From: a virus
Length of the DNA stretch: 64,000 nucleotides
IMG/VR virus record: IMGVR_UViG_3300021142_001794
Span: 1 to 64,000 of that record
Reading direction: 5' to 3' (one strand)
Shown piece by piece: positions 1,164 through 51,500 of the stretch (position 1 is its first letter; every line of letters begins with the position of its first letter). Both the position numbers and the translations under genes were made by a program. Below the pieces are notes generated by a model. It ran no database searches and was not told the origin of the DNA. It saw only the letters and a program-made list of their open reading frames with translations.

Positions 1164-1168
1164 TAGTT

Positions 1169-31736: not shown

Positions 31737-32549
31737 TTAATCCTTATAGTTGCTGTATTCTTCAAAATAGTTGTCTATATATTTGTTGCATTGCTCCCAT
31801 CTTTCCGCATTTTCGTCTGTTTGGTTTCTTTGAAAAGTAATAGCCAACGCCCAAATAGCATCTATGTAAGGATAACCCATACTCAAATAAACATTCAAAG
31901 CGTTCAAGTCAGCCTCTAACTCGTTATCAACATCATTGTTTAAGTGGTAGTGGCTATATTCGTGCATCAGTAAAAAGAATATGATAGGAACGGTATAGTT
32001 CTTTATCATATTCTTAGATGCTTGTATCTTGCCGCCTTTAACAAAGTTGCCCCCTTCATCAACACCATCTATCAGAATCCTAAAAGAAGTGGGTATTATT
32101 TGGTTTTTTTCATCAACAATATTATCCAATAATTCAATTGTAAATTTACCATCATCGCTTTTGTAAACACCAGTATTTGAAACACTAGCATTATAAGCGA
32201 ATCTTTGAGCGAACCTAACAAAAGACCGTTCATCTATTGTCATATCCGAAAGTGTGACAATATTACTTTCGAATGGTACTTTTTGTTGCTTGGTTATCTT
32301 GAAAGTATTATCAACGGTAACAACGCCAACGTTTTCATTATAAACAATTATTTGCGTTTTTGAGCCACATTGCGGCATCCTTACATAAAATGAATAGTCA
32401 CCGTTTACATTCTTTTGCCTATCGGTAAATACAGTAGTCGTTTGCTTCGCATCGTAAGCAATTACCCTTATTGGTTGCATCGAGGTAGTTGTTACACTAA
32501 CTTGATATATTAATGGGTCGTAATTTGTATTTAGTTCGATTAATGCCAT
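31737..32549 (-). CDS. Zincin metallopeptidase-like protein, 270 aa
   Basis: Contains HEYSH (H196-H200), the HExxH zinc motif, and a downstream NELEAD that supplies a third acidic ligand. The N-terminal half is beta-rich and an FFLL hydrophobic helix lies directly before the active site. It may process virion proteins or cut host envelope proteins. A KGG motif (residues 171-173) echoes the GG motifs of the giant proteins at 46401-53902. Confidence 0.78.
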   Translation of the reverse strand: MALIELNTNYDPLIYQVSVTTTSMQPIRVIAYDAKQTTTVFTDRQKNVNGDYSFYVRMPQCGSKTQIIVYNENVGVVTVDNTFKITKQQKVPFESNIVTLSDMTIDERSFVRFAQRFAYNASVSNTGVYKSDDGKFTIELLDNIVDEKNQIIPTSFRILIDGVDEGGNFVKGGKIQASKNMIKNYTVPIIFFLLMHEYSHYHLNNDVDNELEADLNALNVYLSMGYPYIDAIWALAITFQRNQTDENAERWEQCNKYIDNYFEEYSNYKD

Positions 32550-32968: not shown

Positions 32969-32996
32969 TGTTTTGTTTTTTATTAGTTACTTAACT

Positions 32997-33176: not shown

Positions 33177-33181
33177 ATATC

Positions 33182-33559: not shown

Positions 33560-33560
33560 A

Positions 33561-33950: not shown

Positions 33951-33955
33951 GTCTT

Positions 33956-34135: not shown

Positions 34136-34137
34136 AA

Positions 34138-34350: not shown

Positions 34351-34352
34351 AA

Positions 34353-35012: not shown

Positions 35013-35013
35013 A

Positions 35014-35709: not shown

Positions 35710-35710
35710 A

Positions 35711-36112
35711 CTAATCTTTTTGTTTTAATAAAAATACGACACCAATAATAGCAATTATAGTAAAACCACCAATTATGAATAATGTAGTCTGTGAACCACT
35801 TTGCGCTTTCGCAGCCTCTATCGTTGCAATTGCATTTATAGAAGCCACTTGCGATGCCGAAATAGCATCCTCGATTAACTTTTCCCTATCAGCATCAGTT
35901 TGGGCTTGCGCCATTTGCTCGGCTAATTGTTGCTTTTGGTCGTTGCTTAATAAATCAAGCCTAGTATCCTGATTTATCTTGTCCTTTTGAGCATTGATTA
36001 GGTTCTTCTGTGCATTAGTGACACCAGACTGAAATAAACCGCTTATGGTTGTATCTAATACACTAGCACCCGCCTGTATTCCCGAACTTACCGCCGTAGC
36101 TGTTACTGGCAT
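35711..36112 (-). CDS. Tail-anchored coiled-coil protein, 133 aa
   Basis: Helical, with a Lys/Glu/Gln-rich coiled coil (QLAEQMAQAQTDADREKLIE) and a C-terminal membrane helix (LFIIGGFTIIAIIGVVFLL) plus KQKD. Likely a virion-membrane linker. Confidence 0.65.
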   Translation of the reverse strand: MPVTATAVSSGIQAGASVLDTTISGLFQSGVTNAQKNLINAQKDKINQDTRLDLLSNDQKQQLAEQMAQAQTDADREKLIEDAISASQVASINAIATIEAAKAQSGSQTTLFIIGGFTIIAIIGVVFLLKQKD

Positions 36113-36117
36113 AATCT

Positions 36118-36588
36118 TTAAATTAAAAATTTACTCTTATATCTTAATATCGTGTATGGGTGTCCATCAAACTCAAAATTATCTTTTTCAATAACCATCC
36201 CACTTTTTACTAACCATTTAACCGCCCTTTGATTTACTTGGTGCAGCATACAAGAAAACTCGCCACCTAACAACTTTCTTATATGGCTAAAGAAAGAATC
36301 CTTTGTTTTGCTATCCCTTACTCTTAGTCCAAAACTTACCAACAACTTTCTTTCTTCATTGATAGCCACATAACCACAAAACTTATCATCCAATATAAAA
36401 TCAAAATACTTTAATTTCATACTTGGTATTTTGTCATATCCTTGCAACTTTCGCACAATATCAGCAGGAATTTCTTCCTTCTTTATATCTACTGCACTTG
36501 GGTCGTAAAAATTGACTATTTCGTTATCTAACTCAAAAGACCTAATAATACTTTCTTCAATCCGTTGCTGGGTAGTTTCTTTTAACAT
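36118..36588 (-). CDS. GNAT-fold-like protein, 156 aa
   Basis: KYFDFILDDKFCGYVAINEERKLLVSFG and the following HIRKLLGG helix resemble GNAT acetyltransferase strands and the acetyl-CoA loop region. Similar proteins occur among phage internal virion proteins. No membrane segment. The call is by fold-like pattern only. Confidence 0.55.
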   Translation of the reverse strand: MLKETTQQRIEESIIRSFELDNEIVNFYDPSAVDIKKEEIPADIVRKLQGYDKIPSMKLKYFDFILDDKFCGYVAINEERKLLVSFGLRVRDSKTKDSFFSHIRKLLGGEFSCMLHQVNQRAVKWLVKSGMVIEKDNFEFDGHPYTILRYKSKFLI

Positions 36589-36609
36589 TATTTATTTTTT
36601 TTGATTCAC

Positions 36610-37305
36610 TTATTTATACCTTATGCCAATCGCAGAAGCGTAATCGCCCGAATTATCTATATTGCTATAATCGGTATTGTCAGAAGTTGCAGTTGTATCA
36701 ACAGCATTCCCATTAACATCGTAAACCGTGCTATCTCCTACTTCTGTATAACTACCATCTGAATTTAAGTTGATAGCCGTTCCATCCATAGTGTATGCTT
36801 GCCCAGTATTATCGGTATAGGTTCCGTTCGCATCGTTATAGTTGGTAACAGGGCTACCATCTTGAGCCGCTATTACTACACCATTAGGACTAACAAACAT
36901 ACCATCATTGGGGTCAAGGTTTCCTATAACGTTACCATTGGCATCGTACAAAGTTGAAGGGTCGCTATTTTCTATATAACTACCATTCGAATCAACTGTT
37001 GTAATAGGCGTTCCATCAGGTTTTATTGCAGGTGCTGCTACTTTATTGGTAGTAATTAATGCGCTTACCAAAGACTTGCCTAAATCCAAGTATGCTTTTT
37101 GTGAAACTGCATCATTTGGGTTTTGCTGTGCCGCAATCTTAGCTTGTGCAACTTGTTTAGCCGTTGCCGCAACTTGTGTTTTATGTGGCGAATTTGCACT
37201 TGCAGATGTTCCGCCTTTCAATACCGTGTAAGCAATATAAGAAGCTACTATAATAGCTGCCAAAACGCCGACTGTAATAATTAATTGTTTATTCTTCATC
37301 TTCAT
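36610..37305 (-). CDS. Membrane-anchored beta-repeat protein, 231 aa
   Basis: N-terminal membrane helix (LIITVGVLAAIIVASYIAYTV), then a helical Ala/Gln region and tandem beta repeats (PSTLYDANGNVIGNLDPNDG, VSPNGVVIAAQDGSPV, STVYDVNGNAVDT). The paralogue is at 31227-31706; related repeats are in 37326-37706 and 37708-38334. Likely a spike or fibre anchored in the virion membrane. Confidence 0.7.
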   Translation of the reverse strand: MKMKNKQLIITVGVLAAIIVASYIAYTVLKGGTSASANSPHKTQVAATAKQVAQAKIAAQQNPNDAVSQKAYLDLGKSLVSALITTNKVAAPAIKPDGTPITTVDSNGSYIENSDPSTLYDANGNVIGNLDPNDGMFVSPNGVVIAAQDGSPVTNYNDANGTYTDNTGQAYTMDGTAINLNSDGSYTEVGDSTVYDVNGNAVDTTATSDNTDYSNIDNSGDYASAIGIRYK

Positions 37306-37325
37306 CTTTATTTATGTTTTAAATT

Positions 37326-37706
37326 TTAAGCATTTGGATTGTCATTCTCGCCAGAATCATTTGGGTCGTAAACCGTTCCTTTCGGGTCAATGTAGTGCAA
37401 TTTACCATCAATAGTTTGATAGTTCCTGCCATCTGTTTCTAACCTATTCCCGTTTGCATCGGCGAAAAATATTCCATCTTTAGTAACAAACATATCTACT
37501 TTCTTTCCCGTAGAATCCAATCCTACACCATTTTTTAAAGTTGCAGTGGCAATACCATTGATGCTATATAAAGTAGTTCCATTAATGCCTATCTTATAAT
37601 CCTTTTGGGCATTCAAAGTATGCTTCATTTGATAAATAACATAGTAAGCAGCAACGCCACCAATAAGAACAACGCTACCAATAATAATCAAGTTTTTGTT
37701 TTTCAT
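37326..37706 (-). CDS. Membrane-anchored beta-repeat protein, 126 aa
   Basis: The frame opens at 37745 but the start of MKNKNLIIIGSVVLIGG at 37706 is chosen because it falls just after the upstream stop. The N-terminal membrane helix is followed by repeats of LYSINGIATAT, GIFFADANGNRLETDG and GKLHYIDPKGTVYDPND. Paralogue of the two genes at 31227 and 36610. Confidence 0.65.
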   Translation of the reverse strand: MKNKNLIIIGSVVLIGGVAAYYVIYQMKHTLNAQKDYKIGINGTTLYSINGIATATLKNGVGLDSTGKKVDMFVTKDGIFFADANGNRLETDGRNYQTIDGKLHYIDPKGTVYDPNDSGENDNPNA

Positions 37707-37707
37707 T

Positions 37708-38334
37708 TTATTTATGTTTTGATACGAAATAATGATATGCAACACCAGCAGCTATCAAACTACCTATAATAGTAACAGGCATTACCCAATTGTTAGCTAT
37801 CGCCTTTTGATTGTTCGATTGCGTTATTTTAGCTTGTGTAGTAGTATTTGTTGATGTTGTTTGTTGGTTGATTAAGCTAGGTGCTATCTTTTCGGCAAAA
37901 CCAAATATATTAGAAAGTACGCTACTTGAACTGCCACTAGCTAAAGTTCCATCGGCATTAAAGTTTGTTCCAGAACCATCATCATAAGTATTATCCCCGT
38001 TTGAAGTGTAAACGTGACCACTTTTATCTTCATAAGCCCCTGTGCCGCTATCACCTCCCGTAGGATTCCATGCTATTGCACCTACGCCGCTTGCATTAGT
38101 CCATCCACTTGATTTTGTTGGCATAGAGCCGCTTGCATTAGTGAACTTTCCTTTTACTGTTTTCTTGGTTTCACCACTAGCGTTTTTATTTACTCCGCCA
38201 CCATGAGACCATCCACTTTTTTCTAATGTAGGTGCGGTTAGTGCAGTTCCCGTTGCATTAAGATGAGAAGCCATTTTTCTTTGTATAGCAAGGCTTCCAT
38301 TCACGTTGCCCGTTCTTTTGTGTGCTGTATCCAT
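37708..38334 (-). CDS. Tail-anchored protein with SGW-type repeats, 208 aa
   Basis: Contains SGWSHGGG and SGWTNASG, close to SGWSNAGG in the capsid candidate (38820-39566), and GHVYTSNGDNTYDDGSGTN repeats like the beta-repeat proteins. The C-terminal membrane helix is VMPVTIIGSLIAAGVAYHYF. The shared SGW motif could be an interaction element with the capsid shell. Confidence 0.65.
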   Translation of the reverse strand: MDTAHKRTGNVNGSLAIQRKMASHLNATGTALTAPTLEKSGWSHGGGVNKNASGETKKTVKGKFTNASGSMPTKSSGWTNASGVGAIAWNPTGGDSGTGAYEDKSGHVYTSNGDNTYDDGSGTNFNADGTLASGSSSSVLSNIFGFAEKIAPSLINQQTTSTNTTTQAKITQSNNQKAIANNWVMPVTIIGSLIAAGVAYHYFVSKHK

Positions 38335-38345
38335 TTTTTTGGTTT

Positions 38346-38732
38346 TTATTTTTTACTTAATGATATGATTGCAAAGCCTATCAATACCGCTGATGCAAAG
38401 ATAATTATATTTGTCTGCAATGCAACGTTTCCCCCCGTATTATCTTGGGTAGAAGTAGTTGTATCGCCATTAACACCTTTGTACACCAACATATTTGCAA
38501 CCCTTTGGCTATCTTCACTTGGGGGAATCGAATAGTAATTTACCAATATATCCCTATCAGGGTGTATCTTCATAACTTCCTTTAACCCATCTTCGCCGCA
38601 ATTTTGAACTATACTTGAAAGCCCGTCTGCTAATTCACTTTCGTCTTGCGGTTCTAAACCGTAATCTTGACAAAGATTTATAGCTTGTTGTTGGCTTTTT
38701 GGATGTTCGGCTACATATTGAAAAACGTCCAT
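38346..38732 (-). CDS. Tail-anchored protein, 128 aa
   Basis: Helical acidic N-terminal domain (FQYVAEHPKSQQQAINLC), and a C-terminal membrane helix (IIIFASAVLIGFAIISL) with SKK. Located directly downstream of the capsid candidate and its terminator. Confidence 0.65.
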   Translation of the reverse strand: MDVFQYVAEHPKSQQQAINLCQDYGLEPQDESELADGLSSIVQNCGEDGLKEVMKIHPDRDILVNYYSIPPSEDSQRVANMLVYKGVNGDTTTSTQDNTGGNVALQTNIIIFASAVLIGFAIISLSKK

Positions 38733-38758
38733 TTTTTTTTGATTTTTATCCTTAAAAG

Positions 38759-38795
38759 AAAAGGGAGCAAGGTCATACTTGCCTTACTCCCTTTT
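38759..38795 (-). terminator. Strong intrinsic terminator after capsid candidate
   Basis: A near-perfect 13-bp stem AAAAGGGAG(T)AAGG/CCTT(G)CTCCCTTTT directly follows the capsid gene; both strands carry T/A-rich flanks, so it may act in both directions. Confidence 0.75.
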
Positions 38796-38819
38796 AGGTT
38801 TTTATAGAACAACTATTGC

Positions 38820-39566
38820 TTAGTGATAAGCAGGTGCGCTCTGATTTTGTACAACAGCACTACCGTTCAATGCGCCAGTAATACTCACTTGCGTCTTAGG
38901 GAACAAGTAGATGTTGGTTACAGCAGCAGTAGCTTGTGGGTTTGTTTGTTGTGTAAATAATATACCACCGTTACCATCAATTGTGTACTCTAAAGTACTT
39001 GTGGTGATAGTAGTTTGGTATTGGTATTGGTCGTAGATGAATATCAACGGCTTTTGCGCTTGACTACCGTCAGCATAAAGTTCACTAAATGTCATTGGAG
39101 ACGTTACTTGCAACGTGTTGTTTGCGCCAGATGGAGCAATCAATTGTGTACAACCAATAGTGAAAGGTTTCAATTGTGATTGAATCAACAATTGTTGGTA
39201 AGTTACGTTACTTAAACCACTTGTTACAGTGATTGCACCAAGAGCAGTAGCAGCAGTAGCCAAAGGATACCATGCACCAGCAACGAACAAACCACTTGCA
39301 CCGTTCAATACACCATTAGCGAAGAACAACTGAATAGTTGTAGCAGCAGCCAAAGAAGATGTAGCGGTTACTGTGATTATAAAAGGTGAACTTGTTGGAG
39401 CAGAGCCTACTTGTGCAGTACCGCCAGCATTTGACCAACCACTTCTTTGAACAGGCAAAGAAGCACCAGCAGCGTTTCTTCCCATAGAGTTCCTGTAATT
39501 TCCAGCAGAATTGCTGAAAGATTGCCCCCTGTTAGCGGCGGCTTGTAAATAATTAGATGGTTTCAT
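38820..39566 (-). CDS. Candidate major capsid protein, 248 aa
   Basis: Beta-rich, no membrane segment or signal. The N-terminal 50 residues are Gly/Ala/Ser/Asn-rich (MGRNAAGASLPVQRSGWSN), then strands such as SPFIITVTATSSLA, YQQLLIQSQLKPFTIG, KPLIFIYDQYQYQTTI and VTNIYLFPKTQVSI. It has its own strong promoter and is framed by terminators at 38759-38795 and 39929-39963, as expected for the most abundant virion protein. Length matches small double-jelly-roll capsids such as PM2 P2. The fold itself is inferred. Confidence 0.55.
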   Translation of the reverse strand: MKPSNYLQAAANRGQSFSNSAGNYRNSMGRNAAGASLPVQRSGWSNAGGTAQVGSAPTSSPFIITVTATSSLAAATTIQLFFANGVLNGASGLFVAGAWYPLATAATALGAITVTSGLSNVTYQQLLIQSQLKPFTIGCTQLIAPSGANNTLQVTSPMTFSELYADGSQAQKPLIFIYDQYQYQTTITTSTLEYTIDGNGGILFTQQTNPQATAAVTNIYLFPKTQVSITGALNGSAVVQNQSAPAYH

Positions 39567-39622
39567 CTTGTTTTAGTTTTTTTGTTTTTAATTAATTGCG
39601 TTTGTTTTCGTTGCGGATTAGA

Positions 39623-39742
39623 TTAATAGCCACTGATGAATTTCTGCAAAATCATTGGCTTAACAACTTTGTCGTAAGCAATAGAAACTACTAATGCTAC
39701 CAATGCGATTTTACCGATTTCCTTTAAATGTTCGTGTTTCAT
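39623..39742 (-). CDS. Small membrane protein upstream of capsid gene, 39 aa
   Basis: MKHEHLKEIGKIALVALVVS with one hydrophobic helix. First gene after the promoter at 39848-39855; probably a virion membrane component or an assembly factor. Confidence 0.6.
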   Translation of the reverse strand: MKHEHLKEIGKIALVALVVSIAYDKVVKPMILQKFISGY

Positions 39743-39847
39743 TTTAATTTTGTTTTTTTTTAGTTTTTAAAAAATTCACTCAACTACACAAGTACGTTAA
39801 GGCTTACCTTATTACCGCATCCAAACGCAAATAACATTTCAGCGATA

Positions 39848-39855
39848 CAAAGATA
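39848..39855 (-). promoter_or_regulatory. -7 box for the capsid transcript
   Basis: TATCTTTG on - matches TAnnTTTG, about 100 nt before the 39-aa gene and after a strong terminator; the -33 element is unclear. Confidence 0.55.
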
Positions 39856-39928
39856 AATAGGGTTTATTTAACAAGTATTATTTGATTGGTTTACTTATAT
39901 AGGCAATATTTTACTAATAAAAGTAAAA

Positions 39929-39963
39929 TAAAAAACCCAACTAACATACAAATGCTAATTGGG
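39929..39963 (-). terminator. Strong intrinsic terminator on -
   Basis: On - the 10-bp stem CCCAATTAGC/GTTAGTTGGG (with two G-U pairs, extendable to 12 bp) is followed by TTTTTTATTTT. It separates the ATPase operon from the capsid operon. Confidence 0.85.
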
Positions 39964-40021
39964 TAAAATGAAAAAATGAAAAAAATCTTTCCTACAACTT
40001 TCGATTGCAAATATAATGCAA

Positions 40022-40909
40022 TTATTCAAAATAGAAATAATCCTTTAAGAATTTTTTGTTAGCAGTTATATAGGCTTGTTCCATGGACATTGTTTTCTTG
40101 CCAGATAAGTCTCTTTTTTCGGCAAAATACCTTACAATAGGCTTTCCATCGTCAGATGATAAATAGTCCATTACCGCCATTTCAGCCTCTTGCTTAGTGA
40201 AGTCGCCTGTAATCTTGCTATCATCGTTATTAACTATAAGGCTGAAATATCTATTGTCGTTATGATTCGTAACGCCGTCCTCGTATCTTGCATTTACTAT
40301 TTTTTCAGCAATGCTTAATATATGTACCTTATCTTCCGCCCGTTCCTTATATCTTGAAACTTCGTCATTGGTTTTATGTAGCCTAATAAGATTAGTGTTT
40401 GACAATATCTTGGGCGTAAGAACCCTACCAACGCCTTGAAAGTGTAGTACAATATCCAAGCCAATGTGCCTATTAGATATGATACGACCTATCAAATCGG
40501 CTTTCATGTTTTCGGACGTGTATTTGTTTATATCTTCTAGTAGCAGTAATCCATTCCTGTAATAAGATAGTATCTTTTCTAGTGCAACTGAATATTCCGT
40601 ATTAGTCATTGCAACGTTGTTATCCCAATACGGGGCAACACGCCTAACCTCACTAATATTGCTATTGCTGAATTTGGGAATATCCTTTATTGCGATGCGT
40701 TTGATAGAATGTGTTATCATTCCAGCTTTAGGGTCGGGAAACTTAAAACTACTAAATTCATTGTTAACATCGAATATCAATGCTTTTCTAGGCTTCATTG
40801 TGCTAGTGCCTTGTATGTATTGATAGATGAATTTAATGGTCTCTATTGTCTTACCTACGCCTTTCCTGCCCACTGCGGCAAGCATCATTGGTTGTCTGGT
40901 TTCTGCCAT
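40022..40909 (-). CDS. HerA/FtsK-like packaging ATPase
   Basis: The 295-aa P-loop ATPase has Walker A GRKGVGKT (14-21), IFDVNNEFSSF after the first strand, Walker B LLLLED (121-126) and a downstream HFQGVGR, the glutamine switch and arginine region. This layout is typical of the A32/PRD1 P9-type packaging ATPases of membrane-containing viruses, related to HerA/FtsK. No terminase-type nuclease domain is fused. It likely pumps DNA into the preformed virion. Confidence 0.82.
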   Translation of the reverse strand: MAETRQPMMLAAVGRKGVGKTIETIKFIYQYIQGTSTMKPRKALIFDVNNEFSSFKFPDPKAGMITHSIKRIAIKDIPKFSNSNISEVRRVAPYWDNNVAMTNTEYSVALEKILSYYRNGLLLLEDINKYTSENMKADLIGRIISNRHIGLDIVLHFQGVGRVLTPKILSNTNLIRLHKTNDEVSRYKERAEDKVHILSIAEKIVNARYEDGVTNHNDNRYFSLIVNNDDSKITGDFTKQEAEMAVMDYLSSDDGKPIVRYFAEKRDLSGKKTMSMEQAYITANKKFLKDYFYFE

Positions 40910-40910
40910 A

Positions 40911-41117
40911 TTATTCTACTTTTACTTTTCTACGCACAGAATATTGTGGAAATATCGCAAACCTTCTTGGTAATCCCTTAGATGTTGTATATTCATCGGA
41001 TATTTTCTGTGCTTTTGCTATTGCTTCCTTCCAATTATCTTCATTGGTTTTAACGACTATCTTTTTTCCTTCTAATATTTCAATATCCCATTCGTAAATA
41101 TACTTTTCATCTACCAT
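40911..41117 (-). CDS. Hypothetical 68-aa protein next to the ATPase
   Basis: Basic, with EWDIEILEGKKIVVKTNED and a helix. Ends one base before the ATPase start; maybe a small assembly factor. No family recognised. Confidence 0.55.
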   Translation of the reverse strand: MVDEKYIYEWDIEILEGKKIVVKTNEDNWKEAIAKAQKISDEYTTSKGLPRRFAIFPQYSVRRKVKVE

Positions 41118-41120
41118 AAT

Positions 41121-41981
41121 CTATTCTTTTGATTTAGGTCTTCTACCCCTTCTTTTTGGCTCATCCTCTTCCTCTATCTGTATCGTTTCGACAGTTCCGT
41201 CATTTTTAACATTGACCGTTTCGTTTTCAGCTAAAGGAGAAGGTGCAGGATTAACTGATTGTTGTTGCTGTGGCTGTTCCGTTGTTGCTTGTTGTGTTGG
41301 TGGTGGTGGCATCGTAGCCCCTACCGGTCTTTTACTTATCTCTACCAACTTTTCATACATATTTTTTTTCTGCTTGGCAAGTTGAATAACGATAGGCACT
41401 TTTTGTACCAAATCCATAACAACGTAATAAGCCAACATTTCTTCGTCAGTAAGCCCTATTCCTTTCTTTAGTAGTATCCTTGTCAATAAAGGTCTTACAT
41501 TGTCTTTAAACTCTTGGCTTACAGTAAGGACATCGCTAGTTCCACTATTATACTCTACTATTACTTGCTCGACCGTCCTAATAGTACCATCATCATAGGT
41601 TATCTTGGCATTAAGGTTAATGTCACCTTTCAAGTGTGATTCCCTTGCTTTGTCTTCATTAATCTTACAAAGCCCCTCTGCTGCTTTATGTAGATAAGAA
41701 TAAACTCCGATAGCCATATCTGCCATTGCGTCTGCTTGTCTTTTCTTTTCGCCAGCAGACATATCTTCCAACTCTTCATTAAAAGGCTGTTGTTGTTTCT
41801 TTTCCTTAGTTTGTTGCGGTTCGGCTACATCTTCGTCCTCATCCATTTGAAAAGGTGGGGGTGTAAATGCTGGCTCTGGAATAGGACTATTCTTTTCTTG
41901 CTCACTCATTTCGATATTGATTCCGCCGTAATTCTTTACATCAACATCTTTACTTAACATTGGGTGTTTACTTGATTCCAT
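41121..41981 (-). CDS. Acidic low-complexity structural or assembly protein, 286 aa
   Basis: Pro/Gln/Glu-rich N- and C-termini (for example PPPPTQQATTEQPQQQQS) around a central folded domain (DMAIGVYSYLHKAAEGL, LLTRILLKKGIGLTDEEML). The C-terminus is basic (KRRGRRPKSKE). Its composition suits a scaffolding or DNA-associated protein. No known family. Confidence 0.6.
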   Translation of the reverse strand: MESSKHPMLSKDVDVKNYGGINIEMSEQEKNSPIPEPAFTPPPFQMDEDEDVAEPQQTKEKKQQQPFNEELEDMSAGEKKRQADAMADMAIGVYSYLHKAAEGLCKINEDKARESHLKGDINLNAKITYDDGTIRTVEQVIVEYNSGTSDVLTVSQEFKDNVRPLLTRILLKKGIGLTDEEMLAYYVVMDLVQKVPIVIQLAKQKKNMYEKLVEISKRPVGATMPPPPTQQATTEQPQQQQSVNPAPSPLAENETVNVKNDGTVETIQIEEEDEPKRRGRRPKSKE

Positions 41982-42402
41982 AATTTTTATCGTTTAATTT
42001 TTGTTTTGCTTTTTCGTAGCCCTCTTTTAATATTATATCACTAGGCACTTTAGGATTGAAAAGGTTCGCATTTTTAAAATATTTAACCATATTGTAAACA
42101 CTTTGCTTAGTCGTTACATTTAGCGACATAGCTATTGTATTGTATGGCACATTTTCAAACCTTAGCATATAAGCCATTATAGCCCTTGCAGCCATATTTA
42201 CATCATTACTTTTTGATACCAAACATTCTTTATCATTGAAAGCATATATTATAGCATCCTTAATGGTTTTTATCTTTTCATCAGTAGCCGTTGATACCCT
42301 TTGCTTCTTTAAATCCTTTATAGTTTCCCTTATGCCTTTAAGCGTAACGGTCTTACTCATTTCAATCAACAAATCACTAAAGTGTTTATCTTCTTTTGCC
42401 AT
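41968..42402 (-). CDS. HTH-like protein, 144 aa
   Basis: Contains NTIAMSLNVTTKQSVYNMVKYF, which fits a helix-turn-helix. It overlaps the upstream PAP2 gene end by one base and the downstream gene start by 14 nt. It may regulate the late operon. Family not named. Confidence 0.58.
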   Translation of the reverse strand: MAKEDKHFSDLLIEMSKTVTLKGIRETIKDLKKQRVSTATDEKIKTIKDAIIYAFNDKECLVSKSNDVNMAARAIMAYMLRFENVPYNTIAMSLNVTTKQSVYNMVKYFKNANLFNPKVPSDIILKEGYEKAKQKLNDKNYGIK

Positions 42403-43088
42403 TATAGCTTATGTTTTTTCTTGAAAGGTGGATAATTCAAAACCATTTCCGCTACTTCTACGCCCTTATCTACGTCCGACAAATAATGTACACCCATGAA
42501 TAACCTCGAATAGTTAAAATCCCTACTCGCCTTGCCCATCCAATCAAATAACTCTGGATGATAGATACCAACTACGCCACTTAGTATTGCACCCATATAA
42601 GCATGACCGCTAGGATAACTAGGGCTATCAATCGTTATGCTTTGGTGGTGATGGAAGTCGCTCATTTCGTAGTAAACTGCCATTTGATATGGTCTAGGTC
42701 TTTGATAGTGGTATTTAAGTTTAGTTATCAATCCTAGCGTATCAAAAAGCACATCATCCAAAACCTGATTCAGCCTATTGGCATCTATACCAAATTTGCC
42801 ATCCTGTGTTGCGATTCCCTGTTTTAAGAACTCCACCAATCCTACATCGTGGCTTCTATACCTATCCAATGCCGTATGGTTCTGCAAGATTGTTTTAGTA
42901 TTGTTAACCAATGTTTGCAGTTCAGCCCTTGTTATACGACTACTATTGGTAGGTGGTTTATTTGCAGGGTCGCTTATTATTTGGGTAAATAGTTTGTCAA
43001 GGTAACTAGGTAGCTTTAGCCATTCATCTTGCTCCAATGTTGCGTTGCCGTACTTAATCAAATCTAGTTCCTTTGGGAATAAACCCAT
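42402..43088 (-). CDS. PAP2-family phosphatase
   Basis: The 228-aa protein has all three PAP2/haloperoxidase signatures: K125-x6-R132-P133 (KYHYQRPRP), PSGH at 159-162 and S194-R195-x5-H201-x3-D205 (SRLFMGVHYLSD). No transmembrane helices, so it is a soluble acid phosphatase type rather than an integral membrane lipid phosphatase. In the structural operon of a membrane-containing phage, a role in lipid or phosphate metabolism at the host membrane is plausible; the substrate is unknown. Confidence 0.88.
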   Translation of the reverse strand: MGLFPKELDLIKYGNATLEQDEWLKLPSYLDKLFTQIISDPANKPPTNSSRITRAELQTLVNNTKTILQNHTALDRYRSHDVGLVEFLKQGIATQDGKFGIDANRLNQVLDDVLFDTLGLITKLKYHYQRPRPYQMAVYYEMSDFHHHQSITIDSPSYPSGHAYMGAILSGVVGIYHPELFDWMGKASRDFNYSRLFMGVHYLSDVDKGVEVAEMVLNYPPFKKKHKL

Positions 43089-43113
43089 AATGCTTCGTTT
43101 TTAATTCACATCG

Positions 43114-43121
43114 CAAATTTA
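43114..43121 (-). promoter_or_regulatory. -7 box for the PAP2-ATPase operon
   Basis: TAAATTTG on - matches TAnnTTTG, 26 nt before the PAP2 ATG. No clear -33 motif at 19 nt. Confidence 0.5.
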
Positions 43122-43199
43122 GTGCATTTTATTAAGGAAATGTTAAAATAAGTAAATTATGGCTCTATTTTGTATATATAATATATATTTGCAAGGAAT

Positions 43200-43230
43200 T
43201 AAAAAAGGGCAGCCATAGATATAGCCGCCC
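43200..43230 (-). terminator. Intrinsic terminator after tRNA(CAT)
   Basis: On - a 10-bp stem GGGCGGCTAT/TGGCTGCCC-type pairing (two G-U) with loop ATCT is followed by TTTTTT, 42 nt downstream of the tRNA. Confidence 0.8.
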
Positions 43231-43271
43231 GTAGAATCAAAAACCCTCCCCATGAAAGAAAAAAATATTAG

Positions 43272-43344
43272 TAGCGGCGGCAAGGTTCGAACTTGCGGTA
43301 TCTAGCTTATGAGGCTAACGAGATGACCACTTCTCCACGCCGCA
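43272..43344 (-). tRNA. tRNA with CAT anticodon (Met or Ile2)
   Basis: D stem GAGA/TCTC, anticodon stem TTAGC/GCTAG with loop CTCATAA, T arm GCAAG/CTTGC with loop TTCGAAC. The acceptor is paired except the first pair. It lacks the three G-C pairs of initiator tRNA, so it is an elongator Met or a lysidine-modified Ile tRNA. 73 nt. Confidence 0.9.
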
Positions 43345-43349
43345 ATTTA

Positions 43350-43736
43350 TTAGAACAATCCCTTTATGTTTCCGCTTGAATTTACACTAGTGGTACTTTC
43401 ACTAGTCTGTTTCTTTTGTAAGTCCTGCACCGTTGTTTGTAGGTTTGCTATATCATTGGTTAAAGTAGCAATTACGCCGTTCTGTGTCTTTATCTGTGTA
43501 GAATAGTAATGTACAGCGTAAACGATACCCGTAATGGCTGCAACTACTACAATAGCTTCTACCCAATCAATGTTTTTTAAGAACTCGAAATGGTTTTTTT
43601 GTGGTGTTTCTGCTACAACTGTCGTAGGGTTATATTGTGGTGTCACACCTTCAACCGTTACCCCAGCAGGTTGAATAGCAGGTGTCGTAGGTATTTGTGG
43701 TGCGCCCATATCAGGCTGCATTATTGGCTCTGGCAT
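43350..43736 (-). CDS. Pro-rich membrane protein with coiled coil, 128 aa
   Basis: N-terminal Pro/Thr-rich segment (PQIPTTPAIQPAGVTVEG), a membrane helix (DWVEAIVVVAAITGIVYAVHY) and a C-terminal coiled coil (IATLTNDIANLQTTVQDLQ). The tRNA gene follows it immediately. Likely virion membrane protein. Confidence 0.65.
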   Translation of the reverse strand: MPEPIMQPDMGAPQIPTTPAIQPAGVTVEGVTPQYNPTTVVAETPQKNHFEFLKNIDWVEAIVVVAAITGIVYAVHYYSTQIKTQNGVIATLTNDIANLQTTVQDLQKKQTSESTTSVNSSGNIKGLF

Positions 43737-43760
43737 TTTATTTTAGTTTTTATAGTGTTA

Positions 43761-43868
43761 TCATTTTCCTGCGTTCCATCCTTTACTAGCTACCCAAAAG
43801 ATGCCATATATAAATGCACCCGTGATAGCTAATCCAACAGCCGTTCCTATTAGTGTTTTCTTTTGCAT
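43761..43868 (-). CDS. Single-pass membrane protein, 35 aa
   Basis: MQKKTLIGTAVGLAITGAFI with a basic start, one helix and KGWNAGK at the end. Similar to other short membrane proteins of the operon. Confidence 0.6.
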   Translation of the reverse strand: MQKKTLIGTAVGLAITGAFIYGIFWVASKGWNAGK

Positions 43869-43901
43869 TTTGATTTTATTTTTAATTTACAAAGATAGTG
43901 A

Positions 43902-44300
43902 TTAGTTTGTTTTGGCAGATGTCGAAGCTAAATCTTGTTGCAATTTCTCGTCTTTTTCTATATTCTTAGCAATTACACCTACAATTAAACCAGCACTTAA
44001 TAATCCTATACCTATTCTAGCTTTATTCTTATAATCACCCCCTACTGAACAAAGAATACCTAAAACCAATAAATACCAGCCAGCAGTATAACCGTAATAC
44101 CCCAAGCTGTTACGTATCCAATATTGCTTAGGGGTAATTTTACCCTCTTCCAATTCTTGCTTATCTATTTGTTCTCTCCAAAAAAAAATTGCATCTGCGG
44201 GTGTTGGGATACAGTTACTTAAAATCGAAGCAATAACTGCGGTAAATATTATTGCATCCCCATTACCATTACTCCATGCTTTTTTTATTCCTAAATCCAT
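43902..44300 (-). CDS. Membrane protein, 132 aa
   Basis: Two hydrophobic helices (GYTAGWYLLVLGILCSV and ARIGIGLLSAGLIVGVI) and a Lys/Glu-rich amphipathic part. Uncharacterised. Confidence 0.6.
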   Translation of the reverse strand: MDLGIKKAWSNGNGDAIIFTAVIASILSNCIPTPADAIFFWREQIDKQELEEGKITPKQYWIRNSLGYYGYTAGWYLLVLGILCSVGGDYKNKARIGIGLLSAGLIVGVIAKNIEKDEKLQQDLASTSAKTN

Positions 44301-44321
44301 AATTTTTTTATTTTAAAATTA

Positions 44322-44351
44322 CCCCGTTGCAAGTGTTTCGTTACAACGGGG
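44322..44351 (-). terminator. GC-rich hairpin, weak terminator
   Basis: Stem CCCCGTTG/CAACGGGG with a 14-nt loop; on - followed by TAATTTTAAAAT, without an uninterrupted T run. Lies between two membrane-protein genes. Confidence 0.5.
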
Positions 44352-44417
44352 ATGTTTGTCCTTTTACAGAATCCAATAGGTTTTCGTGGCAAGGACTAAT
44401 CGTGATTGAACCAAATA

Positions 44418-44771
44418 TCAACTCCTTTTTTGTACGGTCGTATAAACCATGTTGTTTTTAACCAAATCAATACTATCATAACTTGTACCGCCTTCGGGCT
44501 TTATTGTAGTTCCAAATTTTATACCCCAAGAACCATCAAGTATAAACGTATCGCTACCATAAATACCCAATGTTACTTTCTGCCAAATAGCATTTTTGTA
44601 GGTCATCGTAGCCGTTCCTTTATCGTAATCTACGTTTTGAATGTTTATAGAAGGAATCCAAATATTGTTAAGAAAGAATGAGTACCCTGCACCTATGGCA
44701 CATATACCAGCCACAACTGCGCCTACTTTGATGATTATATCAGTAGCTTTGCTGAATTTTGCTAATTCCAT
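44418..44771 (-). CDS. Membrane protein with beta domain, 117 aa
   Basis: N-terminal membrane helix (IIIKVGAVVAGICAIGAGYSFF) then an eight-strand-like beta domain (PSINIQNVDYDKGTATMTY). First gene of the late - operon. Confidence 0.62.
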   Translation of the reverse strand: MELAKFSKATDIIIKVGAVVAGICAIGAGYSFFLNNIWIPSINIQNVDYDKGTATMTYKNAIWQKVTLGIYGSDTFILDGSWGIKFGTTIKPEGGTSYDSIDLVKNNMVYTTVQKRS

Positions 44772-44788
44772 TTTTATAGTTTACCTTG

Positions 44789-44796
44789 CAAAGGTA
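44789..44796 (-). promoter_or_regulatory. -7 box on -
   Basis: TACCTTTG on - fits TAnnTTTG, 18 nt upstream of the ATG at 44771; this would make the leader very short. Confidence 0.5.
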
Positions 44797-44843
44797 GTTA
44801 AAATGTTAAGAAAACTAAAAAATTCTGTAAATTGTGTTCGAAA

Positions 44844-44875
44844 TTGCATTTTATCCCTTATAGTGTATATATTTG
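44844..44875 (+). promoter_or_regulatory. Bacteroidetes-type promoter on +
   Basis: TTG at 44844-44846 and TATATTTG at 44868-44875 are 21 nt apart, near the ideal 19. Drives the small + cluster at 44897. Confidence 0.7.
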
Positions 44876-44896
44876 TTCTAACAAAATGATAACGAT

Positions 44897-45064
44897 ATGT
44901 GCAACATTCAGAAAAAAGAAGCACAAATTAAGGTGCTAAGAAACAGTATTGCCAATGGCAAATGCAAGAATATCTTTTCCGTTACTAATAAGATTAAGAA
45001 GCTTCAAAAAGAGGTAATAGTAGCATACAAAGGAAAGTCTTACGAACAATTCTTAGCAAGATGA
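44897..45064 (+). CDS. Small basic protein, 55 aa
   Basis: MCNIQKKEAQIKVLRNSIAN; two cysteines and many lysines. First gene after the promoter; overlaps the next gene by 4 nt. Function unknown. Confidence 0.6.
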   Translation: MCNIQKKEAQIKVLRNSIANGKCKNIFSVTNKIKKLQKEVIVAYKGKSYEQFLAR

Positions 45065-45243
45065 AAAATATAGAAATGATTAAGAGAAAAATAATAGAGT
45101 GGTTTTACGGTAAACCAATTATCGGCGAAAAAGTAGAATACAATAGTACCCTATTGATTAAAGAAACGGTTGTCAGCAAGTCATTTATGGATAACTTTAA
45201 ATGGGATTCACACCTATTTAGCAACATCAAAATAATTGACTAA
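45061..45243 (+). CDS. Hypothetical 60-aa protein
   Basis: Basic, with MIKRKIIEWFYGKPIIGEKV. No family. Its stop overlaps the start of the next gene by one base. Confidence 0.55.
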   Translation: MKNIEMIKRKIIEWFYGKPIIGEKVEYNSTLLIKETVVSKSFMDNFKWDSHLFSNIKIID

Positions 45244-45437
45244 TGGGAGTAATATTTATTTGCCTTTACTTATTTATAGGCAGCTTATCCGTGTTGGTTA
45301 AGTCTAAAGAAATAGATGCTTTAGTTGATATTGTGTGTGCTTGTAAAGGTATTAGTGGCATTGATTATTGTATATACCTATTCTTTGTGAGAATCTTATT
45401 TGTTCTATTATTCCCTTTCTTGGTATTCTTAAAATAA
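45243..45437 (+). CDS. Membrane protein, 64 aa
   Basis: Two hydrophobic stretches (FICLYLFIGSLSVLV and LFFVRILFVLLFPFLVFL). No family. Confidence 0.58.
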   Translation: MGVIFICLYLFIGSLSVLVKSKEIDALVDIVCACKGISGIDYCIYLFFVRILFVLLFPFLVFLK

Positions 45438-45441
45438 ATCT

Positions 45442-45642
45442 ATGGCTGGTGTAATTGACTGGTATTATAACAATGAATTTAGGGCAAGAAGATATTATCA
45501 CGATAGGATAGATAGAAAAGAAACAATGAGGCGAATAGTAGATAGTGTTGGAGTGAATAACAGGCACAAGATGTACTTCGTATTACGACCTAGTGTCACA
45601 CTAAAAAAGTTAATGGAAGAAGAAAGCCAACTAAGAAAGTAG
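45442..45642 (+). CDS. Hypothetical 66-aa basic protein
   Basis: Arg-rich centre (NEFRARRYYHDRIDRKETMRR) that may bind nucleic acid. Last gene of the small + cluster, convergent with the 102-aa gene. Confidence 0.58.
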   Translation: MAGVIDWYYNNEFRARRYYHDRIDRKETMRRIVDSVGVNNRHKMYFVLRPSVTLKKLMEEESQLRK

Positions 45643-45656
45643 TTGTCTTTTTAATT

Positions 45657-45965
45657 CTACCACAATAATCTATCTGCATAATACCCAGCACTACCTTTTA
45701 CGTTCCTATCGTTCTTATGCCTTATCTTGTATAACTTACGCCTATCGTCTGCATAGTCTTTGCCGTGCTGCCTAATGTAGTATGGGTAATCTAAATATCC
45801 CATAGCACCTACCGAGCATATCTTTTTACCTTCCTTATCGAATACATCAATCTTCTTTAATGGATTAGCGGATGGCTTAACAGTAACGCCTAATTTAGAT
45901 GCAGCACGGAAAGTGTATGGAAGGATAACGTAAGCCATATTAGAACCACTTTTGCCACTTGCCAA
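45657..45965 (-). CDS. DUF5754-like viral protein, 102 aa
   Basis: PSANPLKKIDVFDKEGKKICSVGAMG, then LDYPYYIRQHGKDYADDRR and AGYYADRLLW resemble a family of small viral proteins seen in giant DNA viruses and phages (quoted in part: SVGAMGYLDYPYY). Basic and beta/helical; function unknown. The family name is from memory and should be checked. Confidence 0.65.
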   Translation of the reverse strand: MASGKSGSNMAYVILPYTFRAASKLGVTVKPSANPLKKIDVFDKEGKKICSVGAMGYLDYPYYIRQHGKDYADDRRKLYKIRHKNDRNVKGSAGYYADRLLW

Positions 45966-46380
45966 TAAATAATAACCCCATTGCAGAAATACCTAACCCG
46001 GCAATCCATCCTATTGCACTAGATTCTTTTTCTTCAACCTTGCCACCATCTTCTTTTTTTTTGGGTTCTTCAACTATTTGAGGAGTTGGCTTTACTTCTT
46101 CTACAACAGGCTCTGGAGTAATAACTACTACCTCTTTTTTTTTCCTAGCGGCTTGCATCTTAGCAGCATTGGCTTTATAGGATTCATTACGGGCTATTTT
46201 CTTGCATAGGTCGCTATCCAATGCTTCTAGTGCAGCCCAAGCATCTTCGTTATTCTCGCTTTCGGCTACTGCTTGTAGTTGTAGCAAGTCTTTAATCGCT
46301 TGCTTAGATTTTGGCAGCAAGTCATCTTCTGTGATACCTGCTACTTTTAATGCTTCTTTGTACTTTAATTTGTAACTCAT
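45940..46380 (-). CDS. Tail-anchored protein with coiled coil, 146 aa
   Basis: Helical N-terminus (LKYKEALKVAGITEDDLLP), a basic coiled-coil part, then a Pro/Lys/Glu linker and a C-terminal membrane helix (IGWIAGLGISAMGLLFIG). Overlaps the next gene start by 26 nt. Follows the polyprotein genes. Confidence 0.65.
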   Translation of the reverse strand: MSYKLKYKEALKVAGITEDDLLPKSKQAIKDLLQLQAVAESENNEDAWAALEALDSDLCKKIARNESYKANAAKMQAARKKKEVVVITPEPVVEEVKPTPQIVEEPKKKEDGGKVEEKESSAIGWIAGLGISAMGLLFIGKWQKWF

Positions 46381-46400
46381 ATTCGTGGGTTCTTAATTGA

Positions 46401-48521
46401 TTATTTTAGTTTGCTTAATTTATCGTAATTAAATATTTCATCTAATTTAGTTTTATAAAAAGCATCTGATATTTTTTTAAACAAATTTTTTCTATTTGAA
46501 GGCTCTGGCGAATTTTCAGACATTTCCCATAATATATTATCTGAATTTTTACGCATATTCTTTTTTTCTAGCAAGTATTTTATTGCTTTTTTTGTTTTTA
46601 AAGAAGATGCTTGCTTTATGTTACTTATTTCAATATAATAAAATCCATCTTTATGTCTTATATTATCAAGCATTTCTCCCCCCTTACCCATCTTACTTTT
46701 AGCTACTTGCGCCCCGATAATCCTTTGTGCTGCTTCTCTAGCTTCTTTAGGGCTGTATTTCTTACCGTAAGCACCTTGATACTCACTAGGCACATATTCA
46801 CCCTCTAACCTTTGCTCAACTGCTTTGGTTTTGGAAGCAAAAGTTTGATCGCCTTTAGCCTTTTTATCTGATTGCTCTTTTATAAGTTCGATTGCAAGTT
46901 CTCTATGGTGTTTTGCAGAATCTAAGTACGATTGTTTTTGTGCAGGGTCTGCTCCATCATAAGCATAACGCTCTCTAGCATCAGCAGCCCTTTCTAGTTC
47001 ATCAACCGTCATGCCATAATACTTTTCATCTTTATAAACCGTCTTACCCCCCTTTCCAAACTCCTTTTCTTCCCCTTCCAAGTAGTGCGCTACATCGGCT
47101 ATATCAGTTGCGCTACGTTCAATCTTAGCAACTACCCAAGCAGGAACATCTTCGCTACCTTCCAATGTTTCTTGCAGTTCCTTAGCGTGGTGTGCAATTT
47201 CAGTAGCCTTATTCGCAACAAGTTCTTTATTGTCAAGTTCGCCACCATGTTCGTACATACCTTCATTAACCAACTTTGCACCGAAATTATTTAAGAATCC
47301 TTTAAGTTGTTTTACACTATTCTCGTTCGATTTTCCATTTCTTTTATATTCGACCCAATCTTCGTCTATATTATCAATAAATAATCTTTCAATTTCTATT
47401 TTCTCCCCATTCGGTAAATAAAATATTTGACCAACCTCTATCTCTTTAACCCTTCCGCTTTTATAAAGCGAACCACCCTCTTTATATTCCTTAAACTCCT
47501 TTAAATGACTATCCGCAATATCTAAAGAAATATGCAAGTCGCTACGATAGTTGTTGATAGCGAACATTTCAATATCGTAAACCAAATCCTTTTTACTATC
47601 CCCAGCGAATATTTTATCTAAGTAAAAAGCACATTTGCGTAGTGCCTCTTTCTTATTTTCAAAATGAGCGTGTAGATGTTGTTCTTCTATCTTAGCAATA
47701 GCCTCTTTAAACTCATTGTGAGCCTTTTCGGTGAAGTGCTTAGTTTCATATCCAAAGACGTTTAAGTTGTGGTGTAATTCGCCACCATGTTCGTGTTCGT
47801 CAACTACCTTAATATCTTCTAATCTATAATTAACCATTTCTTCAAAACCTAATTCGGGATAGTATATTTTAACAAAATCCCCATCAGTTCCTTTATATAT
47901 ACCTATTTGTTTTCTAAATGGCACTTTTAATCTAGTTTCATTAATTACAAGTTCACCACCCTTTGCATACATTTCGCCTCCTTTCTCTAAGTACTCTCTA
48001 CCAACAACGTGTTTGTGTTCTTTAGCTTCTTTAGAAGTAACCACCTTAGCAACTTCGCCGTCTATAACAAAGGATTCAGATTTGATTATTTCAGCCTTTT
48101 CTTTTGTTGTAGGTTTAGAAATTATAGTCCAATATGAAACACCGTTATCATAAGTCTTTTCTGCAACTACTACATAGTCTTTTATCTCACCGCCTTTTTC
48201 ATATTCACCTTCATGCACGTGTTCATCAAGCCTATTCTTAATCCAATCGTAAAGGTCGCTATACTTGTAGTCTTTAAACTTTAGTTGTTCTGGATGCTTG
48301 TTAGTATGGTCTTTTAAGAAGTGTTCCCTTTGCTCAACCGTCCACATATCCCAAATCTCTTCGGCTATTTTGCCTTTGTATTGGTTTTCGATTTCTTTTT
48401 TTTGTTCAAACAAGTGTTCTGCACCTTTTGACTTTTCTATTTTCTTTTTTGCGTTCTCTAGTATTTTACTTACGCTATCCTTTAGTTGAGCGGCTTTAGT
48501 TACTCTTTTTGATGTTGCCAT
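46401..48521 (-). CDS. GG-punctuated multidomain protein, 706 aa
   Basis: Eight or nine short segments end in [KH]xGG motifs, at residues about 110, 181, 188, 246, 349, 426, 491 and 614 (for example EYEKGGEI, EHEHGGEL, MGKGGEML). Between them lie separate small domains, including a helical block DVPAWVVAKIERSATDIADVAHYL seen in many phage structural proteins and a YEHGGELD-like hinge. No membrane segment. The pattern fits a polyvalent protein cut at GG sites, perhaps a virion internal protein. Cleavage is inferred. Confidence 0.7.
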   Translation of the reverse strand: MATSKRVTKAAQLKDSVSKILENAKKKIEKSKGAEHLFEQKKEIENQYKGKIAEEIWDMWTVEQREHFLKDHTNKHPEQLKFKDYKYSDLYDWIKNRLDEHVHEGEYEKGGEIKDYVVVAEKTYDNGVSYWTIISKPTTKEKAEIIKSESFVIDGEVAKVVTSKEAKEHKHVVGREYLEKGGEMYAKGGELVINETRLKVPFRKQIGIYKGTDGDFVKIYYPELGFEEMVNYRLEDIKVVDEHEHGGELHHNLNVFGYETKHFTEKAHNEFKEAIAKIEEQHLHAHFENKKEALRKCAFYLDKIFAGDSKKDLVYDIEMFAINNYRSDLHISLDIADSHLKEFKEYKEGGSLYKSGRVKEIEVGQIFYLPNGEKIEIERLFIDNIDEDWVEYKRNGKSNENSVKQLKGFLNNFGAKLVNEGMYEHGGELDNKELVANKATEIAHHAKELQETLEGSEDVPAWVVAKIERSATDIADVAHYLEGEEKEFGKGGKTVYKDEKYYGMTVDELERAADARERYAYDGADPAQKQSYLDSAKHHRELAIELIKEQSDKKAKGDQTFASKTKAVEQRLEGEYVPSEYQGAYGKKYSPKEAREAAQRIIGAQVAKSKMGKGGEMLDNIRHKDGFYYIEISNIKQASSLKTKKAIKYLLEKKNMRKNSDNILWEMSENSPEPSNRKNLFKKISDAFYKTKLDEIFNYDKLSKLK

Positions 48522-48577: not shown

Positions 48578-51500
48578 TTAGATTTGTCCACCTTTCTTTA
48601 ATCTTGTTTTAGGATTTGCATCGGCTCTATTTGGTCTATTTTCATAGTAAGTATTACCACTAGAAGAAACTCTTTTTCCAGCAGGTAAAGCAGTTCTTTT
48701 ACTATCAGACTTTAAAGACTTTTCACTACGACCCTTATTGAAATTATCCACTTCTTTTACTTTAGCAACCCTTTTAGTTGTAGCCTTTTTAATTACAGGC
48801 TTCTTAACTTCATAGTGTTTTAATAAAGCATTGCTAATAGCCTTTGCTTTAAAGTACTTATCAAGCCTTTCATCTTTTGGAACTTTATTTAGTTCGGAAA
48901 GTTCGCTGTTTATTTTTTTAAGTAAGTTATCTTTAGTTATTTTGCCGCTTTTTAATTCCTTATCGTAATGATTAATCCAATAATTAATAGATACTGTGTA
49001 ATCCTCTTTAGGCGTTTCAAATTTAGGCTTCTCTTTTTCAATTTCTTTCAAGAACTCTTTGCCTGTTTCATAGCTAGTTTTCAATCTTACATAACTACCC
49101 TCTTCCGCCCAATTTTTATTTTCTATTGCTTCATAACGCTTTATTTGCTCTGGATACATTGCCATGCTTTCCTTTAGCTGTTTTAATAGTTTAGCCTTTT
49201 CTGCTTCACTAGCACTATTATATGTTTTAAAGGTGTTTTCAAGCATCTCTTTATTTATGTAGCTATGCGGTTCTTCTTTATTATCATTGGGTAACTGAAA
49301 CTTGGGGGCCGATCCGTACTCTATTATCTTACCATTGCTATTATCCCTACGCCACAACATATTACCCTTTAGTTTCAAGAAGGTAAAATTAGTGTCAGTT
49401 GGTTTGTCTTTAAACTTTTCTTTTACATAGTCGGGGATGTCGCTATTAATATCTTCGACAACCTCTATCTTATTTTCAGCCAAGTCTAATTTAGCATCCG
49501 ATTGTTCGTTGATGTTTTCTTCTTTTACTTGCTCTGGTTCAACTACTTCAATCTTCTTTTCTTCTACATAAGCACCAAAACCCGTTTGAGATAAGAACTC
49601 TTCCACTAAAGGTTTAATCGTTTCTTCAAAGTTCTTTTTGCTTACATAATTATCATCCAAGAAATAAGGCTTATTAACATTTTTGGCATCATCACTAAAT
49701 GTAGTAACAGAAAAGTATTGTTCCATACACCTAGCAAAGCACTCTTTAGTAGAATTATAGTAATCACTACTAGATTTTACATTCATCAACTTTCTAAATG
49801 TAAATGCCAATACGCCAGCTTTACCCTCATAATCATCAGTAGCCCAACGCTTACCACTTAATCTACCTAAGTGATTATCTATATAGTGGGCTGTCTCGTG
49901 TGAAAATATACTTTCAAACATTTCATTGCCGTGTTTAGCAGAAACGGCTATCGTTTTCATCTTAGGCACAAATACGCCTACTGCCTTACTTGCAAACACA
50001 TTGGTATTAGAGGTGTGGGATATTTTCATTCCATCGGCTCTAGCTATATTGCTAAGGTTTCCATATACTTTCTGTAACGCTATCCATCCGTTTTCTATTT
50101 GATTGACTTGTATAGCATCAATCATTTTGCCGTCTTGCCTTTTAACCAATATACCATATTTAGCAAATAGAATATCATTTGTATTTATATCCCCAAAAGA
50201 TGTTTCAAGGGCTTTTTTATATTGCTCGTTATCTACTTCACGCTGAATTTTAATGTCCTTTATTTTAAAGTCCATCATTTCACGGAACTTTACCCAGTAC
50301 TCCCAAACTACACTATTTGCAAATTGACCCCTTTCATTAACTGTTCTAACCTTCGTTGGGTCTAAAAATCTTTCGTACATAAAGTGAAAAGAAGTCCACA
50401 TACTATGACTATCTAGTTGTGATTTTAACCTTTCGGGATTATATCTTTTATATGGCTTGTACAATGCTTCCTTGCCCGCCAAGTCTAGTGCCTCAAATTG
50501 TTCTCTAGTTACCTTCTTTTGAACTTCTTTAGGCAAATAGTTGTAATAGCCCTTTTGGTTTAATATTCTTTCTCTAGCAGATTCGGGAGTTTGGTTATAA
50601 TAAGCCAAAGAACGCTCGTTTCTTTCATCAGCTTCTTTTACCTTGATAGCCTTAGCTTTAGTAAAATAGTAATCTTGCAGCAATACAAGTTGGTCTAATG
50701 TTACTAACACATAACCGTGTTCATAAGTGTAGGCATCACGACCCCCAATTAAATTAACCGACCTACCTATAAATTCTTTTTTTGCCCCAATCTTTTCTTG
50801 ATAACCATTTACCGCTACTATGTAGGTATCTTTAGCTATCCTTATCGCATCAAATAAATAACCCTTTTGCCTAAATACATCTTCGTTAATATAGGGGATA
50901 TAAGCTGGCATTTCATCTGTTAATATGGTTTCTTCGTCAAATGATATTACGCTTGTATCAACATTTAATAAAGAAGGGATATTATCATTAATAGTTCCTT
51001 TTTGGTCGGTAAATTCTGAAATAGTACCACCTTTTAAAACAGCTTTCTCAACATTCTTAGCGTGTATTATTTTTACCTCTAAGTTTTTAATATCCGCATA
51101 CAGCTCTTGCTTTTCTTCGCCTAATTGCTTATATTTTGGTATAGCCAACTTACCCTCTTCGGTTTTAAAATCCCATGCTAACCCTTTTTCTTCCTTATTG
51201 ATTTCGTTAATCCTATCTTTGATATTAGACTTTTCAGTTTCTAACTTTTCTACTTCTTGCTTGTAAGTATTTTTCAAGTTTTCTAATGCCGCCCCAAAGT
51301 CCTTTAGTAGATTTTCCCTTTCTTCTTCACTCAAAGATTCCATAAACTTTTTAGCTGCCTCTTTTGCATCAACTTCGCCACCCTCTTTAAACTTCGAAAT
51401 TTTGTGATGATGTGATTCACCTTTAATGTGAGCCTTTAATAATGACAATGCAAGTGCTAATTCCCTATCGTTTGTTATATTGTGTATTTGAATAAGCCTT

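Follow-up and report, generated by a model that had tools for sequence, protein, structure and literature searches.

The PAP2-superfamily phosphatase gene examined here belongs to the core gene set of an undescribed virus family. It comes from a 64,000-nucleotide stretch of viral DNA (the window), which is part of a 67,957-bp IMG/VR record. The fold and the active site of the encoded protein are known; what is new is a signal-less, virus-specific PAP2 clade that is represented as a core operon gene. The explanation that we consider probable, if only just, is that the product is a soluble, cytoplasmic, virus-specific phosphohydrolase of the class A type, which is made late, belongs to the core of an apparently terminase-free family and acts on a small soluble phosphate or pyrophosphate.

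A single ORF of 228 amino acids on the minus strand fills the interval 42402-43088 exactly, and the plus strand contains many stops across the same interval. The ORF, the motif spacing and the Pfam match all agree with the original prediction of a PAP2 phosphatase with three intact catalytic motifs. The protein matches PF01569 with 38.8 bits (E = 9.2e-10), which passes the curated cut-off of 27.2 bits, and it fits the consensus KX6RP-(X12-54)-PSGH-(X31-54)-SRX5HX3D (quoted in PMC12356135), with inter-motif spacings of 25 and 31 residues that are correct for the superfamily. Within motif 2, H162 and G161 are present in all 32 aligned sequences and S160 in 29 of the 32. In one sub-branch (the PAP2 genes of L095, L096, L098, L099 and L114), PAGH replaces PSGH (Ser160 to Ala), with the remaining catalytic residues all kept. 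The N-terminal YGN signature is shared by nearly the whole window family, compared to 8 of 43 other phage PAP2 proteins, and further conserved motifs are found at the N- and C-termini of the family proteins. The PAP2 gene is under strong purifying selection in the family (dN/dS of 0.05-0.13). Given that full-length relatives, 30-40% identical, are encoded on dozens of other viral contigs and that the catalytic residues are essentially invariant, the PAP2 match is not a chance product.

Features of the PAP2 gene and its neighborhood (window coordinates)
Feature	Position	Strand	Basis
PAP2-superfamily phosphatase, 228 aa, predicted cytoplasmic class-A-type	42402..43088	-	ORF, Pfam, profile search, model, fold match
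Motif 1, K125-X6-R132-P133, phosphate-binding Lys/Arg	42690..42716	-	K125, R132, P133 in 32/32 aligned relatives
Motif 2, PSGH, P159-S-G-H162; H162 presumed acid	42603..42614	-	sequence and alignment
Motif 3, SRX5HX3D, S194-R-X5-H201-X3-D205; H201 presumed nucleophile	42474..42509	-	S194, R195, H201, D205 in 32/32
N-terminal YGN signature (YGNP in most relatives)	43044..43052	-	104/109 family proteins
Conserved 144-aa gene, family 'g147'	41968..42402	-	start codon overlaps PAP2 stop by one base (TAATG)
Conserved acidic protein, 286 aa	41121..41981	-	76/77 loci
P-loop ATPase, putative genome-packaging ATPase, HerA-like look	40022..40909	-	Walker motifs
Conserved beta-rich protein, 248 aa, adjoining ATPase; capsid candidate	38820..39566	-	low-confidence model
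Conserved small protein with C-terminal TM segment	38346..38732	-	TM prediction, synteny
Putative zinc protease (HEYSH motif), 270 aa, conserved	31737..32549	-	58/58 family loci; motif read from sequence
Conserved 102-aa protein upstream of PAP2	45657..45965	-	59/63 loci
Intrinsic-terminator-like hairpin and T run just upstream of PAP2	43201..43230	-	z -3.0
tRNA-Met upstream of PAP2, followed by the terminator-like hairpin and then PAP2	43271..43344	-	tRNA prediction

A profile-based scan of IMG/VR identified relatives of PAP2 at 80 loci. About 37 of these loci share the neighborhood, to the extent that their length permits, in the order 102-aa gene, transmembrane (TM) proteins, PAP2, (147-aa gene), 286-aa gene, ATPase, 230-aa beta-rich protein and 136-aa TM protein. 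To avoid selection by PAP2 itself, a second IMG/VR scan was keyed on the P-loop ATPase alone. Of the loci found in this way, 73 had enough flanking DNA, and at 71 of them PAP2 is located upstream of the ATPase and in the same orientation. Near-duplicate contigs are included in all these locus counts. In the two long records that lack PAP2 at this position (G001 and G003), the gene is found at another place; the remaining misses are fragments or, in the case of G006, a record that ends just upstream of the ATPase. The relatives were detected only by alignment-based scans, with zero found by single-sequence scans using PAP2 or the ATPase and by two DNA patterns. The gap before PAP2 in the relatives is mostly below 35 nt, and the commonest spacing after it is -1 or -4 nt. 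No tRNA was seen at the PAP2 loci of 23 relatives. A Bacteroidota-type TAnnTTTG promoter, seen by eye upstream of PAP2 in the window, was rejected because its frequency in the relatives is at the chance level.

The placement of the gene in a 'structural operon', as originally proposed, draws support from the synteny, the many single-TM late proteins and the adjacent P-loop ATPase, but no capsid gene is proven. None of the window's late proteins was assigned to a terminase, portal or tail family, and two terminase models matched none of 19 family records (50-102 kb); this lack of terminase and tail genes is the pattern of membrane-containing, non-tailed (Tectiliviricetes-like) phages. A TM-like segment is predicted in 20 of the 42 late proteins, many of them single-TM. 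Given these single-TM proteins and the lack of a terminase, an internal membrane is plausible, as is, judging from gene content, a non-tailed, membrane-containing virion for the family. The Walker A motif and the following Asp motif of the ATPase align to PM2 P9 with an hhalign probability of only 19%, and the value for PRD1 P9 is 7%; the similarity is weak, and membership of the ATPase in the FtsK-HerA superfamily is only putative. The beta-rich capsid candidate was modeled with a pLDDT of 57, and a fold search with it gave zero significant matches.

Several other features of these genomes were recorded. The loci L171-L248, together with window positions 31737-48521, represent an undescribed, apparently terminase-free family whose conserved morphogenesis operon encodes many single-TM proteins. 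Two very large late proteins of the window, of 1774 aa (48578-53902) and 706 aa (46401-48521), contain repeated EGG-type segments and are possibly injected polyvalent proteins. Elsewhere in the window, there is a gene for a dATP/dGTP diphosphohydrolase domain (MazZ-like; 21028-21846), with no purZ-like gene seen, and, at the left end (246-4279), an IS1595-like transposase adjoins a P63C-domain protein and a DNA methylase. At L002:6660-7469, hexapeptide repeats (GNGCELGDYCELG...) make up a 269-aa protein with a predicted left-handed beta helix.

Distant relatives of the ATPase were detected in 7 of 395 Bacteroidia genomes, in proviral loci (L275-L281) where the 147-aa and 286-aa genes adjoin the ATPase and where, in several cases, a protein in the capsid position and then two TM proteins follow it. 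A SNF2-type helicase polyprotein is located near the proviral module in at least one of these loci. The presence of relatives of the ATPase module in Bacteroidia suggests that the hosts of the window family are Bacteroidota. The viral PAP2 is absent from all seven proviral loci; thus, the module can exist without it.

Both the sequence and the fold place the protein closest to class A acid phosphatases. These enzymes were matched at 6e-7 in a PDB search with the single window sequence and at 3e-13 to 9e-18 in a search with the family profile, in which LpxE scored 2e-8 and PgpB 1e-2. The AlphaFold2 model of the protein is all helical, with a pLDDT of 93.5, and the top Foldseek matches to it are all class A acid phosphatases, with TM-scores of only about 0.6. 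Judging from this model, the viral PAP2 has a soluble all-alpha fold closest to the PhoN and PhoC structures. Most class A non-specific acid phosphatases are secreted or periplasmic and carry a signal peptide (PMC6438641), whereas no signal peptide was found in the window protein, where N-terminal hydrophobicity is 0.41 (the family median is 0.61, versus 2.41 in bacterial relatives). A TM segment is predicted in none of the 109 family PAP2 proteins, so that the multiple TM helices that surround the active site of integral-membrane lipid phosphate phosphatases are lacking as well.

In a 90-sequence maximum-likelihood tree, the viral proteins are split from the bacterial class A enzymes with support of 97/97, the one exception on the viral side being a long-branch outlier, the BcrC-type protein of L006. 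The window family forms one clade (93/71), which other phage PAP2 proteins adjoin. The best PAP2 match among the 395 Bacteroidota genomes, at E = 5e-22, is far more distant than the matches within the family (1e-64 to 1e-95). The comparison with host copies that had been proposed as a check therefore argues against recent capture of the gene from a host, which is unlikely given the separate viral clade and the distant Bacteroidota match. The viral clade extends to terminase-bearing (tailed-type) phages (G029, G033, G035, G037 and G038), and on other phage contigs of the clade PAP2 is located near genes for ribonucleotide reductase (NrdA), a DnaB-type helicase, primase or DNA polymerase. In a 1713-aa phage protein (L165:6429-11570), PAP2 is part of one chain with a polyA-polymerase head and the core of a eukaryotic-type (type IB) topoisomerase I.

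The gene was correctly described as unusual in a phage: none of the annotated INPHARED phages carries a PAP2 gene of the window type, there is no PHROGs family for it, and no report of such a gene in phages was found in the literature searched. The tblastn matches in INPHARED resemble bacterial DNA filed as phage, or unannotated fragments. The three that were examined (H1, H3 and H4) were rejected as phage copies: one is a contig of a Salmonella assembly, one comes from faeces and carries bacterial-type genes, and one is an Acinetobacter contig that carries chromosomal genes. A second Salmonella assembly and a 3-kb record without annotation are among the further matches.

By analogy with the superfamily, H201 would accept the phosphate from the substrate to form a phospho-histidine, H162 would act as the acid, K125, R132, S160 and R195 would grip the phosphate, and water would then free it from the phospho-histidine. 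The ATPase and small membrane proteins are encoded in the same operon. PAP2 would be made with the late genes, and the reaction is expected to occur in the infected cytoplasm, late in infection. The substrate would probably be a small, soluble compound, either a phosphate monoester or a pyrophosphate (a nucleotide, PPi or similar), rather than a membrane lipid. Such a cytoplasmic enzyme is favored by the lack of TM segments and signal, the class A affinity, and the occurrence of the clade next to replication and nucleotide genes and in terminase-bearing phages. Soluble phosphate esters are the substrates of class A acid phosphatases, the nearest relatives; the specificity of the viral enzyme would have to be narrower, because a broad phosphatase free in the cytoplasm would do harm. 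Three observations count against this explanation: in the window family, the neighbors of PAP2 are of the morphogenesis type and not nucleotide genes, the proviral relatives in Bacteroidia carry the module without PAP2, and the modeled resemblance to class A structures is limited by the TM-score already given.

The lack of membrane segments and signal, the affinity to class A over PgpB, LpxE and YodM, and the presence of the clade in terminase-bearing phages and next to replication genes speak against the original suggestion of a phosphatidate phosphatase that remodels lipid, and make a lipid activity less likely, as does the equal module that proviral relatives maintain without PAP2. In a more general form, the idea is that the enzyme removes phosphate from phosphatidic acid, PGP or a different lipid phosphate on the cytoplasmic side and so determines how the virion membrane is composed or curved. 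We consider it unlikely, with several points in its favor: an internal membrane is plausible for a family with so many single-TM late proteins and no terminase, PAP2 is a core gene embedded beside the ATPase, soluble enzymes are able to work at membrane surfaces, and lipid selection by membrane phages is stated to be unestablished (PMC6356626). The bolder version, that widespread, terminase-free, probably non-tailed membrane phages with genomes of up to about 100 kb build the virion membrane with an obligatory soluble PAP2 that acts on membrane lipid phosphates and is encoded in the morphogenesis operon, appears less probable again.

The cytoplasmic location, the virus-specific clade, the strong purifying selection and the sharing of the gene by unrelated phages would also fit a role in counter-defense or host take-over, with PAP2 dephosphorylating a nucleotide that serves as an alarm or signal; however, the late-operon position and near-universal retention are atypical of accessory counter-defense genes, PAP2 enzymes are not known to act on nucleotide signals in this way, and our estimate for this scenario is low. 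Lower still is that for a packaged virion component which acts at entry on envelope or carrier lipids such as undecaprenyl pyrophosphate. The location of PAP2 among morphogenesis genes is compatible with packaging, and the conserved terminal motifs might dock the protein, but these motifs may merely pack on the core, and the protein has no signal or membrane anchor, whereas superfamily members that act on C55-PP are integral membrane proteins. The least probable of the alternatives is an auxiliary metabolic gene for phosphate scavenging, similar to periplasmic PhoN or PhoC: class A relatives gather phosphate in the periplasm and an auxiliary metabolic gene for acid phosphatase is reported from Caudoviricetes (PMC10721903), but the family lacks an export signal and PAP2 is a core gene, the distribution of which is not patchy.

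A phosphatase that is intact, embedded in an operon and near-universal in one virus family, and that unrelated terminase-bearing phages also have, points to an undescribed chemical step in infection. It may bear on the sourcing of lipids by membrane phages, which is reported to be unestablished (PMC6356626), or on nucleotide and pyrophosphate metabolism.

Among known viruses, the window family resembles the small double-jelly-roll phages PRD1 and PM2 in that no terminase is found, endolysin-type genes are present and a P-loop ATPase is encoded near small TM proteins. This likeness rests on gene content, homology of the ATPase and capsid being only putative. The family differs in size, with records of up to about 102 kb compared to the 7-18 kb of prokaryotic double-jelly-roll virus genomes (PMC5894146), and in the phosphatase itself, no annotated gene of PRD1 or PM2 being named as such. 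Among known enzymes, the integral-membrane PAP2 lipid phosphatases PgpB, YodM, LpxE and BcrC share the superfamily and the catalytic motifs with the viral protein, but the viral family has no transmembrane helices, and the profile scores are weaker. Class A enzymes (PhoN, PhoC, E. blattae acid phosphatase and P. aeruginosa 7f17) have in common with it the three motifs of the active site, the all-alpha soluble fold and the length class, with only 18-23% identity in structure alignments; unlike them, the viral PAP2 lacks an export signal, forms its own clade, bears the N-terminal YGN signature and is encoded in a viral operon.
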